A DNA stretch of 64,000 nt, taken from assembly GCA_019455325.1 (NCBI GenBank), contig JACFMQ010000001.1:569071-633070 (forward strand), read 5' to 3'. Of the stretch, positions 57,240 through 64,000 are shown piece by piece. Positions within the stretch are counted from its first letter, which is position 1, and each line of letters opens with the position of its first letter. A program made the position numbers and the translations under genes. The notes below the pieces were generated by a model, which did not search any database, was not told the origin of the DNA, and was given only the letters and a program-made list of their open reading frames with translations. Source of the DNA: Rhodocyclaceae bacterium. Lineage in GTDB: Bacteria > Pseudomonadota > Gammaproteobacteria > Burkholderiales > Rhodocyclaceae.

Positions 57240-57573
57240 ACGCCGCCTCCGCATCGCTCGCCGGATGGGAATCCGGAGCGAATCCATCGCAATCGATTAT
57301 GAATCGATGAACGTCGAGGAAGCGCCGTCCGTCGCCGCCTGAGCATGTCAATGCGCGATTTACCGCTCATTTAGACGCGATATCGACGGCGATCACGACA
57401 AATAACGACAAATTGCATTCATGCAATCGCCCGGCGGGCAGGCTGCGGCACCGACGTTTTTCCCTCGTCCGGCGGTTTGTTGCGTTCTTGTGACGGTAGC
57501 GTGGTTTTGTAGACGCTTTCTTCCGTTCCTGCAGCGCGCCGACCGCGGGGACGAGCAAGGGGAGAGGACAAAA
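57240..57573 (+). promoter_or_regulatory. Promoter region of the uptake hydrogenase operon
   Basis: 334 bases without a gene. Visible signals are a 9-base direct repeat ACGACAAAT at 57395-57403 and 57405-57413, a palindrome TTGCAT-TC-ATGCAA at 57413-57426, and repeated AATCGAT near 57291-57308. A GGCAC (57447-57451) resembles half of a sigma-54 -24 element, but the -12 GC is absent, so sigma-54 control is not shown. The repeats may bind a HoxA/HupR-type activator. Confidence 0.5.
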
Positions 57574-58710
57574 ATGACAAGAAGGCCAGCGGCCGACAAG
57601 CCGACGTTCTACGACGTATTCCGCCAGCGCGGCGTCTCGCGCCGCGATTTTCTCGGTTTCTGCGCGCTCACCGCGACCTACCTCGGGCTCGGCCCGGACG
57701 GCATGGGCACCATCGTGCATGCGATGGAGACCAAGCCGCGCATCCCGGTGCTCTGGCTGCACGGCCTCGAATGCACCTGCTGCTCGGAGAGCTTCCTGCG
57801 CTCCGGCCACCCGCTGGCCTCGGACATCATCATGAGCATGATCTCGCTCGACTACGACGACACGATCATGGCCGCCGCCGGCGAACAGGCCGAGGAAATC
57901 CTGCACGACATCGTCCGCGACTACCGCGGCGCCTATCTGCTGGCCGTCGAAGGCAACGTGCCGCTGGCCAACGACGGCATGGCCTGCATCATCGGCGGCC
58001 GGCCGTTCAAGAAGAAGTTCGAGGAAATGGCCCGCCACGCCAAGGCCATCATCTCCTGGGGCACCTGCGCCAGCTCCGGCTGCGTGCAGGCGGCGAAGCC
58101 GAACCCGACCAAGGCGACGCCGATCCACAAGCTGGTCGAGCGCGTGCCGGTGATCAACGTGCCCGGCTGCCCGCCGATCGCCGAGGTGATGACCGGCGTC
58201 ATCAGCTACATCCTGACCTACGACCGCCTGCCCGAGCTCGACCGGCAGCGCCGGCCCAAGCTCTTCTACTCGCAGCGCGTGCACGACAAGTGCGAGCGCC
58301 GCGCCCACTTCGACGCCGGCCAGTTCGTCGAAGCCTGGGACGACGAGGGCGCCAAGCAGGGCTGGTGCCTGTACAAGATGGGCTGCCGCGGCCCGACGAC
58401 CTACAACGCCTGCGCCACCATGGGCTGGAACGAGAACACCAGCAACCCGATCCGCTCCGGCCACGGCTGCATCGGCTGCTCGGAGGAAGGCTTCTTCGAC
58501 CGCGGCCCGTTCTACGAGCGCCTGCCCGACATGCAGCAGTGGGGCATCGAATCGAACGCCGACAAGGTGGCCGCCGTCGGCGCCGCCGCGCTCGGCGGCG
58601 CGGTCGCCGTGCAGCTCGGCGCGACGGCGGTGAAGCACGTGGTCAACGTCGTCCGCCGGAAGACGGCGAAGGACGACGCGGCCGAGAAGAACGAGGAGCC
58701 CCAGGCATGA
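57574..58710 (+). CDS. hupS: Uptake [NiFe]-hydrogenase small subunit, oxygen-tolerant group 1d type
   Basis: Electron-transfer subunit of the membrane-bound H2 oxidase, 378 residues. The Tat signal is [20 protein letters not shown]. The proximal cluster motif LECTCC places extra Cys69 between Cys67 and Cys70, and [10 protein letters not shown] gives Cys165 and extra Cys170. These are the two supernumerary cysteines of the oxygen-tolerant 4Fe-3S type. Medial and distal motifs follow ([38 protein letters not shown]), with a C-terminal membrane anchor near 340. ATG 57574 has GGAGAGG upstream. The open frame begins at 57421 but lacks support. The stop overlaps hupL. Confidence 0.95.
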
Positions 58711-59930
58711 CCCGCAGCACCACGCCCAACGGCTTCACGCTCGACGACGGCGGCCGGCGCATCGCCCTCGACCCGGTGACGCGCATCGAGGGCCACATGC
58801 GCGTCGAGGTGAACATCGACGGCGACAACGTGATCCGCAACGCGGTCTCCATCGGCACCATGTGGCGCGGCCTGGAAATCATCATGAAGGGCCGCGACCC
58901 GCGCGACGCCTGGGCCTTCGTCCAGCGCATCTGCGGCGTGTGCACCGGCGTGCACGCGCTGGCCTCGATCCGCGCGGTGGAAGACGCGCTGGCCATCGAC
59001 ATCCCGGAGAACGCCAACACCATCCGCAACATCATGAACCTGTCGCTGTACGTTCATGACCATCTGGTGCACTTCTACCACCTGCACGCGCTCGACTGGG
59101 TCGACGTGGTGTCGGCGCTGTCGGCCTCGCCCAAGGCCACCTCCGAGCTGCAGCAGTCGATCTCGCGCTGGCCGAATTCCTCGCCCGGCTATTTCAAGGA
59201 CGTGCAGGACCGCGTCAAGAAGCTGGTCGGCTCCGGCCAGCTCGGCCCCTTCCGCAACGGCTACTGGGGCCACGCCGCCTACAAGCTGCCGCCGGAAGCC
59301 AACCTGCTGGCCGTGGCGCACTACATCGAGGCGCTCAACTTCCAGCGCGAGATCGTCAAGATCCAGGCCGTGTTCGGCGGCAAGAACCCGCATCCGATGT
59401 GGATCGTCGGCGGCGTGCCGTCGGCGATCAACATGCACGCCACCGGCTCGTCCGGGGCCTCGGTGAACGTCGAGCGCATGAACCTGGTCGGCGCCATCGC
59501 CCGCAAGTCGCTGACCTTCATCGAGCAGGTCTACGTGCCCGACCTGCTGGCCATCGGTTCCTTCTACCCGGAGTGGTTCAAGAACGGCGGCGGCCTTTCC
59601 AGCAAGAACCTGATCTCCTACGGCGAGTTCCCGACGCGCGCCAACGACGACTCCAACGCCAGCCTGATGCTGCCGCGCGGCGCCATCGTGAACGGCGACC
59701 TGAAGACGCTGCACGAGGTCGACCTGCGCAACCCCTCGCACATCCAGGAGTTCGTGCCGCACTCCTGGTACCGCTACCCGGACGACAAGGCCGGCCGGCA
59801 CCCCTGGGACGGCCTCACCGAACTCGACTTCCGCCTCGGCGCGAAGACGCGGCAGACGCCGGAGCGCATCGAATCCTTCGACGAGAACGAGAAGTACAGC
59901 TACATCAAGGCGCCGCGCTGGAAGGGCTAG
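58707..59930 (+). CDS. hupL: Uptake hydrogenase large subunit, N-terminal part ending at an in-frame TAG
   Basis: 407 residues of the nickel-binding subunit. It starts in the HyaB/HoxG pattern ([20 protein letters not shown]) and has the L1 motif [11 protein letters not shown] with C76 and C79. Sequence continues collinearly to [11 protein letters not shown], where a TAG at 59928-59930 replaces a residue that is a sense codon in homologues (E. coli HyaB reads APRWRGNAMEVGPLAR). The frame resumes immediately downstream. Read as one frame, 58707-60506 would be 599 codons plus stop, the normal length. Without readthrough or complementation this part lacks two of the four nickel cysteines. Confidence 0.9.
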
Positions 59931-59933
59931 GCC

Positions 59934-60506
59934 ATGGAAACCGGCCCGCTGGCGCGCATGGTCATCGCCTACGCCAACGGCAACGGGCGCGTGAAGGAAC
60001 TCGTCGACGGCGCGCTGAAGAAGCTCGACCTGCCGCTCTCCGCCCTCTTCTCGACGCTCGGCCGCACCGCGGCGCGCGGCCTGGAAGCCCTGTGGGCGGC
60101 CGAACGGCTGGTCGAACAGGTGGCCTTCCTGGAGGCGACGATCAAGGGCGGCAACGAGGCCACGGCCAACGCCGAAAAATGGTCGCCGACGACCTGGCCT
60201 TCGACCGCGCGCGGCGTCGGCTACGCCGAGGCGCCGCGCGGCGCGCTCGGCCACTGGATCAGCATCCGCGACCAGAAGCTCGACAACTACCAGTGCGTGG
60301 TGCCGACCACCTGGAACGCCAGTCCGCGCGACGCCCAGGGCAACATCGGCGCCTACGAGGCGGCGCTGCTCGGCGTGCATCTGGCCGACCCGAAGAAGCC
60401 GCTGGAGATCCTGCGCGTCATCCACAGCTTCGACCCGTGCCTGGCCTGCGCCACGCACGTCATCGGCCCGGACGGCGGCGAGCTGACGGTGGCCCGGGTG
60501 CTGTGA
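59934..60506 (+). CDS. hupL: Uptake hydrogenase large subunit, C-terminal part after the TAG
   Basis: 190 residues in the same frame as the upstream part, separated by TAG and one codon. It starts [20 protein letters not shown]. It holds conserved [40 protein letters not shown] and [20 protein letters not shown], and the L2 motif [11 protein letters not shown] with C169, C172 and cleavage-site H175. The C-terminal peptide [15 protein letters not shown] is the part removed by HupD. GGAAGGG lies seven bases before the ATG, so separate initiation is possible, although that sequence also encodes the conserved W-K-G. The stop overlaps hupC. Confidence 0.85.
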
Positions 60507-61207
60507 TGAAGGACTACATCCCCTACCACCAGTTGCCGGAGGGGAACATCCCCGAGCCGGTGACCATCTACGGCCCCGGCGTGCGCCTGTGGCACTGGGT
60601 GAACGCGCTGCTCGTCGTCGTCCTCGGCGTCACCGGCTATTTCATCGGCGTGCCACCGCCCTCGGCGCTCGGCGACACCTCCTCGCTCTACATCATGGGC
60701 TGGATCCGCTTCCTGCATCTGGCCGCCGGCTATCTCTTCGCGCTGCTCGCCGTCGCCCGGCTGTGGCTGACCTTCGTCGAGAAAGGCATCTCGCACCAGC
60801 TCTTCCTGCCGGCCATCTGGCGGGCGGAGTGGTACCGGGGCTTCGTCCGCCAGGTCCAGTGGAACTTCCTGCTGCCGGTGCAGCCGGCCCGCTACGTCGG
60901 CCTCAACCCGCTCGGCAACATCGCCATGCTGCTCTGCTACGTGCTGCCCGGCTTCGTCATCATCGTCACCGGCTTCGCCATGTACGCCGAGGTCACCGGC
61001 CACGACAGTTGGCAGTACATGCTCTTCGGCTGGGTCACGTCGATCTTCGGCAACACCATGGACCTGCACATCGTTCACCGGCTGGCGATGTGGCTGATGG
61101 TCGGCTTCGCCCTCGTGCACATCTACATCGCCGTGCGCGAGGACGTGCTGTCGCGGCAGACCATGATCAGCTCGATGCTCTCCGGCGAGCGGCAGTACCG
61201 GCGATGA
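60506..61207 (+). CDS. hupC: Hydrogenase b-type cytochrome subunit
   Basis: Membrane diheme cytochrome that passes electrons from HupSL to the quinone pool. The 233-residue product has four helices. Heme histidines are likely in [40 protein letters not shown] and [22 protein letters not shown] in parts. [20 protein letters not shown] and the C-terminus [20 protein letters not shown] are family-typical. It overlaps hupL by one base and hupD by four. Confidence 0.94.
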
Positions 61208-61701
61208 ACGCGACCGCCGCCCCCACCGTGCTGCTCGGCATCGGCAACGTCCTCTGGGCCGACGAGGGCTTCGGCCCGCGCGTCGTCGAGCGCATCGCGG
61301 CGCGCGGCGACGTCGACTGGCCCGCCGGCGTCGAGGTCGTCGACGGCGGCACGCAGGGCCTCTACCTGCTGCCGCTGGTGCAGGAGGCGGCGCGCATGAT
61401 CGTCTTCGACGCCGTCGATTTCGGCCGCCCGCCGGGCGAGATGGTGATCCTGCGCGACGGCGAGATTCCCGCCTTCTTCGGCCAGCGCCCGCTCTCCCTG
61501 CACCAGACCGGATTCACCGACGTGCTCGCCGCCGCCGAACTGACCGGCAGGAAGCCGGGCGCCATCACGCTGATCGGCGTCCAGTACGCCGACATCGACA
61601 CCTGGGGCGGCGCGCTCTCGCCCGCCATCGCCGCCGCGCTCGACCCGGCCATCGACGCCGGCCGGCGCGAACTGCACGCCTGGGAGGAGAAAACCGCATG
61701 A
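61204..61701 (+). CDS. hupD: Hydrogenase maturation endopeptidase
   Basis: Nickel-dependent protease that trims the large subunit C-terminus. The 165-residue product has [20 protein letters not shown] (Glu ligand), [15 protein letters not shown] (Asp ligand), [20 protein letters not shown] (His ligand) and [20 protein letters not shown]. It overlaps hupC upstream and the MCP gene downstream by four bases each. An intact protease beside a broken hupL suggests the interruption is recent or tolerated. Confidence 0.94.
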
Positions 61702-63347
61702 ACCGGACCACCAGCCGCTACGAATACGACCGGACCCTGAACCTGCTCGGCAAGATCAGCGTCGCGCTGTTCCACTTCGTCGACAACGTGCGCATGTTCA
61801 AGGTCGGCAACTTCATCACGCTGTTCACCGTGCTCCTGCTCGTCGCCGGCTTCGCCGCCACGGCGCTGACCTTCAAGTCGGTCGCCGACATCGCCGGCGT
61901 CTGGCGCGACTTCGATTCCGGGCTGGCACGCCGCATCGACCTGCTCGGGCATTTCCAGCACCATCTCGGCCACGGCGGCGTCGCCCGCCACTGGGACGAG
62001 GCGCTCGCCGGCGACGCCGCCGCGCGCAGGGCGGTCTCCGCCGCGCTGCTGAAGGTGCGCGAAGGCTTCCCGGCCTTCGTGAACGCCAGCCCGTCGGACG
62101 ACGAGAAAAAGCACCTGGCCACGCTGGAAAGGACCGTCGCCGCCTATGAGGCCGCGCTGGCCGGCGGCAGCCGCGTGCCGGCGGCCGACGAGGAGGCCGC
62201 CAGCGCCGCGCTGGCCGGCATCCGCGACGCGCTGGCCGAGCGCCGCAAGCGCGGCGCCGACGCCGTCGAGGACGCCATCTGGTCGCTGTCGCTGCAGGTC
62301 GGCGGCATCATGTTCGCCACCGGCCTGATCCTCGCCTTCTTCGGCCTGTTCGCCTTCTGGTTCGTCCGCTTCCGCGTGGCGCTGCCGCTCTCGGCGATCA
62401 ATTCGACGATGACCGGGCTTTCCGGCGGCGACACCGGCGTCGACGTCCCATTCACCGCCAAGCGCGACGAGGTCGGCGAGATGGCCCGCGCCGTGCAGAT
62501 CTTCAAGGACAACGCCATCGCCAAGGGAAAGATGGAAGTCCAGAAGCAGCAGGTGACCCGCGACATCCAGGAAACCACCCGGGAGCTGGCGCAACTGACG
62601 GTCACCGCCCGCGGCGCCACCGGCGAGCAGGCTTCGGCCACGTCGAGCATCTCGGCGGCCACCGAAGAGCTGAGCGTGAGCATCGACCACGTCGCCGAGA
62701 ACGCCGAGCGGGCGCTGGACGCGACGCGCGAAACCGTCGACGCGGTGAAGCAGGGCGAAGTCGCGGTCAAGGAGACGATCGCCGTCATGGAGCAGACCGC
62801 CGACCTCGTCGGCCAGGCCCGCGACAAGGTCGAGGAGCTTGCCCGCGAGAGCGACCGCATCCACGAGATCGTCGCCATCATCCAGAGCATCGCCAAGCAG
62901 ACCGACCTGCTGGCGCTCAACGCCTCGATCGAATCGGCGCGCGCCGGCGAGGCCGGCCGCGGCTTCGCCGTGGTCGCCGACGAGGTGCGCAGCCTGGCCG
63001 AGAAGACCAATGCCTCGGCGCTCGACATCGGCAGCATCCTCGAACAGATCCAGCGCCGGATGGGCGACGTCACCAGCGAGGTGGCCAGCGCCTCGGACAA
63101 GGCCGGCGAAAGCGCCGCGCGCTCGCGCACCGTCGGCGACGCGCTGCTGCAGATCGACCGGCGCGCCGGCATGGTCGCCAGCGCCATGGCCGACATCGCC
63201 GACGCCTCCCGCGAGCAGAGCACCGCCGGCCGCGACATCGCGCAGAAGGTGGAGATGGTCGCCACCTCGTCGGAGACGATCAGCACCCAGATCAACCGCA
63301 TCGACGAACTGATGCGACGCCTGAACAAGAGCACGACGAGCATCTGA
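61698..63347 (+). CDS. Methyl-accepting chemotaxis protein inside the hydrogenase operon
   Basis: A 549-residue transducer. A cytoplasmic N-terminal segment of about 35 residues precedes helix 1 ([20 protein letters not shown]). A periplasmic helical domain spans about 60-195 ([20 protein letters not shown]). Helix 2 follows ([20 protein letters not shown]), then HAMP ([40 protein letters not shown]). The signalling hairpin tip is [20 protein letters not shown] followed by [20 protein letters not shown]. No C-terminal CheR-tether pentapeptide is seen. Its ATG overlaps the hupD stop and its stop is 10 bases from the HupU-like gene, so it is co-transcribed with the hydrogenases. Confidence 0.93.
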
Positions 63348-63357
63348 GAACCCGACC

Positions 63358-64000
63358 ATGAACGCACCCGAAAACCGGCCCCGGCCCCTTTCGCTGCTCT
63401 GGCTGCAGTGCGGCGGCTGCGGCGGCGACAGCATGTCGCTGCTCAACGCCGCCTCGCCCGAGCCGCACGAGCTTTTCGCGCAGCTCGGCGCCGAGCTGCT
63501 CTGGCACCCTTCCCTGTCGAACGGCTCGCCCGCGGAGCACGACGCCCTGCTCGAATCGATCGTCGCCGGCGAGCGAGCGCTCGACCTGCTGCTGGTCGAA
63601 GGCGCCATCGTGCACGGCCCGGAGCACACCGGCATGTTCGACACCCGCCGCGGGCGGCCGAAGAAGGATCTCGCCGCCGCGCTCGCCCGCCAGGCCGGGC
63701 ACGTCGTCGCCGTCGGCACCTGCGCCGCCTTCGGCGGCATCGCCGCCGAAGGCGCGCTGCAGGGCAGCGGCCTCCAGTTCACCGGCAAGCGGCCCGGCGG
63801 CCTGCTCGGCGCGGAATTCCGCGGCCGCGCCGGTCTGCCGGTGATCAACCTCGCCGGCTGCCCGGTGCACGAACAGGTCATCACCGGCACGCTGCTCGCG
63901 CTGGCCGCCGGGCAGGCGCCGCTGCTCGACGAGTTCAACCGCCCGCTCGACTGGTTCGGCATGACCGTGCACCAGGGCTGCACGCGCAACGAGTACCACG
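63358..64000 (+). CDS. hupU: HupU/HoxB-like sensory [NiFe]-hydrogenase small subunit, cut by window end
   Basis: The first 214 residues of a group 2-type small subunit. There is no Tat signal, so it is cytoplasmic. It has LSLLWLQCGGCGGDSMSLLN, GAELLWHPSLSNG, VAVGTCAAFGGIAAEGALQG, QFTGKRPGGLLGAEFRGRAG, LPVINLAGCPVHEQVITGTL and VHQGCTRNEYH. These match HupU/HoxB, the H2-sensor family. At the first cluster motif the usual C-x-x-C reads C21-G-G-D24, with an additional C18 before it. It follows the MCP by 10 bases. The large subunit HupV would lie beyond the window. Group 2a or 2c membership is also possible. Confidence 0.88.
   Translation, partial: MNAPENRPRPLSLLWLQCGGCGGDSMSLLNAASPEPHELFAQLGAELLWHPSLSNGSPAEHDALLESIVAGERALDLLLVEGAIVHGPEHTGMFDTRRGRPKKDLAAALARQAGHVVAVGTCAAFGGIAAEGALQGSGLQFTGKRPGGLLGAEFRGRAGLPVINLAGCPVHEQVITGTLLALAAGQAPLLDEFNRPLDWFGMTVHQGCTRNEYH

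Follow-up and report, generated by a model that had tools for sequence, protein, structure and literature searches.

[NiFe] uptake hydrogenases of the Hyd-1/HoxGK type are exported through the Tat pathway and lie on the periplasmic face of the membrane, where cytochrome b anchors them. In the hupSLCD/hoxKGZM operons, such as that for Hydrogenase-1 of Dechloromonas aromatica, the genes for the small subunit, the large subunit, cytochrome b and HupD stand in that order, and in this organism the genes after hupD are, according to PMC2907700, hupF, G, H, I and J. Group 2c [NiFe] hydrogenases are entered in the HydDB table (PMC5037454) as putatively linked to diguanylate cyclases, with their role given as undetermined, perhaps H2 sensing; SFDxCLVCTVH is quoted as their L2 consensus in a passage of PMC4853749. 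The same HydDB table calls [FeFe] group C2 'Chemotactic (putative)', the hydrogenase being proposed to act via chemoreceptors (MCPs). CetA/CetB-type receptors combine a membrane MCP with a separate sensing protein, an FAD-carrying redox partner whose interaction with the MCP has been shown (PMC12442639, PMC13401364). Taxis towards H2 is represented by hydrogenotaxis in the archaeon Methanococcus maripaludis, as cited in part of PMC4266047. Among the literature matches listed, no title or abstract opening connected an operon for a [NiFe] uptake hydrogenase with a chemoreceptor.

The window, by which we mean the whole 64,000-nucleotide stretch analysed, spans positions 569071–633070 of contig C9; the genome measures 4.46 Mb and is assembled in 31 contigs. 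The + strand of the window carries, in order, hupS, hupL, hupC, hupD, an MCP gene and a hydrogenase small subunit gene, which continues past the window edge. The stop of hupD (61204–61701, +) overlaps the MCP gene (61698–63347, +) by 4 bases, and the MCP stop is 10 bases from the small subunit start at 63358, also on the + strand, which confirms the overlapping or closely spaced arrangement on one strand given in the original prediction. Beyond the edge lie genes for a 509-aa large subunit, a 142-aa hydrogenase protease and a PAS-HisKA-HATPase-REC hybrid kinase of 701 aa, followed by those for a single receiver and a GAF/HD-GYP protein. As judged from the ORFs as far as C9:655000, neither a hupT-like gene nor a che gene follows directly downstream. 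A Pfam and NCBIfam scan of nine proteins agreed with the names used here, hupS and hupC being named by likeness or position. Two units meet at this locus: hupSLCD-mcp, and a 2c-like sensory hydrogenase cluster that starts 10 bases later.

The first unit shares the gene order of the hupSLCD/hoxKGZM operons, with the difference that hupD is followed by the MCP gene. The small subunit gene hupS (57574–58710, +) encodes a Tat-type motif, SRRDFLGF; its start is inferred, the ORF opening at 57421. The large subunit gene hupL (58707–60506, +) matches PF00374 over the whole model with one in-frame TAG, which splits the gene at 59928–59930, just before a METGPLAR stretch; in-frame reading resumes at the ATG at 59934. 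In all ten relatives checked hupL was uninterrupted. The enzyme of this strain may have been lost or be inactive, with the MCP left intact; an error in the assembly could also account for the stop. The b-type cytochrome subunit gene hupC (60506–61207, +), named by position and likeness, is also found between hupL and hupD in the relatives, and the product of hupD, the maturation protease of the uptake hydrogenase, matched PF01750 (HycI protease) and scored 156.4 bits with TIGR00140 (cut-off 151.8).

HupL was closest to the Hyd-1/HoxG structures, its best PDB matches being 4c3o, 3ayx, 3uqy and 3rgw, which we take to be O2-tolerant membrane-bound hydrogenases. These matches and the presence of hupC and hupD give a likeness to group 1d uptake hydrogenases, the large subunit being interrupted in this genome. 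Judged by its sequence, the enzyme of the first unit is an uptake hydrogenase of the Hyd-1/HoxG kind, in a rare subclade. The genome has a second uptake hydrogenase on contig C7, Hyb-like by eye, with no MCP alongside within 16 kb. Upstream of hupS, no sigma-54-like site was found beyond chance in 10 loci. A divergent kinase/receiver pair is present upstream of hupS in three relatives (L170, L171 and L172) and is a possible regulator of the operon.

The linkage of the MCP to hupD was examined by searching 395 genomes of the family with residues 1–225 of the MCP, which cover the sensor. The sensor region was found in 10 genomes, and in all 10 the MCP gene directly follows hupD, with hupS-hupL-hupC upstream; in one of these loci (G138) a contig end cuts inside hupS. 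A Gallionella record (L048) likewise has the MCP directly after hupD, and over these 11 loci the distance from the hupD stop to the MCP start ranges from −28 to +6 bases. The hupD-mcp order that was to be surveyed is thus conserved in every sampled family genome with this receptor, as well as in Gallionella. Because it recurs in 10 of 10 family genomes with the sensor region, the adjacency of hupD and mcp is more than chance. For the Gallionellaceae, HyaAB and HupUV are reported in the passages of PMC10734462, and these passages do not mention a hupSLCD-mcp operon. Across the class, the sensor search gave 3 of 369 genomes including our own, the other two being weak; among plasmids it gave 48 records, and the 20 listed align to the HAMP end only.

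A complementary search with the HupD of the window found a match at E 1e-25 in 153 of the 395 family genomes. The HupD of the genome itself and the nine next best (63–82% identity) come from the ten MCP genomes and no others; among the matches listed, the rest reach at most 56% identity. Thirty family HupD loci were fetched, and an MCP was present in those 10, with no MCP match in the other 20, where flanks of up to 1.5 kb were covered and two loci had under 950 bases of room. In the class sample HupD matched in 35 of 369 genomes, with a best identity outside our own of 53%, and no MCP was seen at any of the 29 such loci fetched, two with under 750 bases of room. Of the 22 rows in a HupS tree, the 10 that are MCP-linked (nine family genomes and Gallionella, with the cut L168 and the duplicate L042 omitted) formed one clade with 100/100 support, its stem 1.3 changes per column long; the comparison set of 12 rows is small, and one of its members (L085) was flagged as a long branch. 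The MCP-linked HupS proteins differ from those of the hupSLCD/hoxKGZM operons in being a separate, long-stemmed clade. The distribution of the MCP is narrow, and the linkage may partly reflect shared descent.

The MCP itself, the last gene product of hupSLCD-mcp, has 549 aa and matches MCPsignal (PF00015) with E 3.6e-36. Its layout is an N-terminal tail, TM1 at about residues 39–57, a predicted periplasmic four-helix sensor, TM2 at about 204–222, a HAMP-like region and the MCP signalling domain. The two transmembrane peaks and the PF00015 match above its cut-off are those of a transmembrane MCP, with the HAMP found below its Pfam cut-off (19.5 versus 25 bits). The tail before TM1 is conserved. 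Conservation of the sensor was considered as evidence and rejected: mean all-pairs identity was 0.601 for the hup MCP sensor versus 0.714 for a control MCP, for which a full-length likely orthologue was available in seven of nine genomes (G083 and G183 were dropped), so that the control was on average more conserved in the same seven genomes, with G138 showing the reverse. A GYxGMIHHFKN-type N-terminal helical region is shared by a kinase and an MCP from two other families (L185 and L186) and gives a weak profile match to the sensor.

We consider it fairly probable, from gene order and content, that the MCP is dedicated to the hupSLCD operon and serves H2 taxis or energy taxis through uptake hydrogenase activity. 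Co-expressed with hupSLCD, the MCP would report on H2 or on H2 oxidation, and its output would pass to CheA and so to taxis. CheA-type and flagellin genes in the genome favour this reading, as does the resemblance of the sensor model to the Tar, Tsr, PcaY and NarQ bundles. The TAG in the hupL of this strain, the generic nature of the four-helix match, the lack of a sigma-54-like site beyond chance and a different MCP directly after the 2c-like cluster of one relative (G153) count against it. Two routes can be envisaged. The periplasmic bundle of the MCP might touch periplasm-facing HupSL/HupC to make a bipartite receptor in which the hydrogenase is the sensing partner, for which the two-protein receptor CetA2/CetB2 is a precedent (PMC12442639). 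Alternatively, the MCP might read a redox or quinone change caused by HupSLC, as in the dehydrogenase-dependent energy taxis of Campylobacter (PMC10746189). Since the active side of HupSL and the Tar-like sensor of the MCP are both expected in the periplasm, direct contact would be possible, and the puzzle of a periplasmic sensor set against a cytoplasmic hydrogenase would disappear if the partner is HupSL.

The strongest form of the contact route, in which HupSLC docks on the periplasmic helical bundle, the active hydrogenase is the sensing half and swimming is guided by how fast the bacterium itself oxidises H2, we regard as unlikely. Such a receptor would differ from CetA/CetB in that the proposed partner is a hydrogenase, and from [FeFe] group C2, where the proposed sensor is an unrelated [FeFe] enzyme, in that it would use a [NiFe] uptake enzyme. 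More generally, the MCP gene regularly closes one rare type of uptake hydrogenase operon, which suggests that these bacteria steer by their own use of H2. As the hupSLCD-mcp operon names one receptor and one enzyme, H2-taxis is testable in bacteria that carry it.

The best-surviving alternative is that the MCP senses another periplasmic cue, such as O2, nitrate, redox state or a metal, and shares its expression with the uptake hydrogenase simply to bring H2 oxidisers into zones that suit them. The sensor model favours this reading in being an ordinary four-helix bundle that resembles those of Tar, Tsr, PcaY and NarQ; the match is generic, with no Foldseek match below E 0.001, no PDB match in a sequence search and no Pfam match for the sensor region. 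The absence of a cofactor motif by eye and the weak likeness of the sensor to the domain in the kinase and MCP of other families point the same way. Set against them are the linkage with a single hydrogenase clade in all 10 family genomes and the lack of a second copy of the MCP in its own genome. On balance another cue seems unlikely, and the uptake hydrogenase remains the better candidate for what the MCP reports on.

In the original prediction the small subunit after the MCP was called HupU-like, and H2 binding by this sensory hydrogenase was proposed as a possible input to the receptor. The small subunit gene (63358–64000, + strand, reaching 64320 by offset) encodes 320 aa with Oxidored_q6 and NiFe_hyd_SSU_C domains, and the module continues downstream with the large subunit, protease, PAS hybrid kinase, REC and GAF/HD-GYP genes (L009:9402-15589). 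The large subunit has the L1 motif CGICSTTH, the L2 motif RSFDPCLVCTVH and a tail of 11 residues beyond the last His; adjoining it is a protease gene (P0004, PF01750). By comparison, the CGICSVSQ type of L1, a motif taken from HoxA-linked relatives, is presumably that of group 2b (HupUV/HoxBC). In a table of 112 large-subunit rows from the fetched loci, four pairs being duplicate records, the Q-type L1 (CGICS[VI][SAT]Q) was found in 32 rows. In each of these the last His is the final residue, and 31 of them lack a protease gene within 700 bases; the remaining one (L113) has an uptake HupD nearby. An H-type L1 was found in 76 rows, of which two lack the tail, one is cut and 13 showed no protease; tail and protease are thus usual in these rows, not universal. 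Four of the 112 rows had no L1 match. The H-type L1, the tail and the adjoining protease rule out HupU (group 2b) for the small subunit.

The L2 motif of the MCP-side enzyme follows the group 2c consensus. The cluster includes a c-di-GMP gene and differs from the HydDB table entry (PMC5037454): GAF/HD-GYP takes the place of GGDEF, which is absent from this cluster and found in many relatives, and a PAS hybrid kinase stands between. The best solved relative was chain 7uus, 'Hydrogenase-2, large subunit'. We call the MCP-side enzyme a 2c-like sensory hydrogenase. Most likely, this cytoplasmic enzyme would signal through its own PAS hybrid kinase to the HD-GYP protein as c-di-GMP effector. The genome also encodes a HupUV-type enzyme, far from the MCP on contig C31 (L011:7409-11326), which is a Q-type row without a tail and lies beside a HoxA/HupR-like regulator and hyp-like genes, these neighbours being named by likeness.

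We then considered whether the 2c-like hydrogenase could bind H2 and act on the MCP at its HAMP or signalling region to give H2-taxis. The tight adjacency of MCP and 2c-like cluster favours this, and is found in 2 of the 10 MCP genomes, our own and G183; the conserved tail before TM1 also fits. Elsewhere the placement varies. In Gallionella (L048:8930-10050) a hupE-like gene stands between the MCP and the 2c-like cluster, directly 5′ of the hydrogenase. In Rhodocyclaceae bacterium CTSoil_117 (G003; JAGTRP010000015.1, the record of both L042 and L137) the MCP still directly follows hupD, and the 2c-like cluster lies beyond hupS in divergent orientation. G029 and G231 carry the cluster on another contig than the MCP. 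With at most five candidates scored per genome, a 2c-like small subunit of at least 340 bits was not listed in five of the ten (G083, G138, G326, G330 and G361); G083 is a single contig and 99% complete, the other four genomes are drafts, two of which (G326 and G330) show a weaker match below 340 bits.

The two systems nevertheless tend to occur together, which also speaks for this route. A 2c-like small subunit was found in 5 of the 10 MCP-operon genomes against 34 of the 395 family genomes (p 6.5e-4, or 3.8e-3 without our own genome, relatedness uncorrected), and where the small subunit reaches at least 67% identity, in 8 genomes, 5 hold the MCP operon (p 1.7e-7, with the cut chosen after seeing the data and relatedness uncorrected). 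This enrichment suggests a common lifestyle behind both systems and does not demonstrate a single complex. All 34 family loci with a 2c-like enzyme were fetched, and 31 have no hup MCP nearby. Relatives with the sensory enzyme and no such receptor, which had been named as what would refute the proposal, were therefore largely found, with G153 and Sulfuricella not clean.

In G153, a genome without the hup MCP, a different MCP of 564 aa (L140:13672-15366; the same record as L047) begins 43 bases downstream of the HD-GYP gene in the 2c-like cluster. In Sulfuricella (L049:6800-10000) an MCP with a different N-terminal region is followed by a hupE-like gene and then by the 2c-like hydrogenase. These two loci favour some tie between an MCP and the sensory enzyme in single genomes. 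MCPs as regular companions of 2c-like enzymes were rejected on five loci in which a different MCP precedes the 2c-like gene (L149, L150, L133, L049 and L060); there aldehyde dehydrogenase, transporter, hupE-like or opposite-strand genes intervene and no receptor matches the hup MCP sensor region. G153 speaks against this rejection, and further MCP matches, outside the five-locus comparison, occur in L074, L108 and L080/L151.

The place of the 2c-like cluster after the MCP is occasional, so that the expected order of mcp followed by a sensory small subunit holds in only the two genomes above. Given the divergent cluster of G003, the five genomes where the small subunit was not detected, including G083, and the PAS hybrid kinase that the sensory cluster has of its own, action of the sensory hydrogenase on the MCP is distinctly improbable. 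Because the MCP follows hupD in 10 of 10 genomes while the placement of the 2c-like cluster varies, the MCP looks, as far as gene order can tell, as though it goes with the uptake hydrogenase, and the sensory hydrogenase appears to form a module apart, equipped with signalling genes of its own. What stands of the proposed hydrogenase-MCP module is a hydrogenase-linked MCP unit from which H2-linked taxis can fairly be inferred; the sensory hydrogenase as the input of the MCP is not supported.

That the MCP feeds another CheA pathway (pili, biofilm or c-di-GMP) and not flagellar taxis is very improbable: the six CheA-type matches in the genome, one borderline (five to six loci), and the HD-GYP gene of the neighbouring unit speak for it, and the presence of flagellin genes (four matches) tells indirectly against it. 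Immediately 3′ of that HD-GYP gene lies a ParD/RelE-like toxin-antitoxin pair, named by eye (L009:15691-16286).
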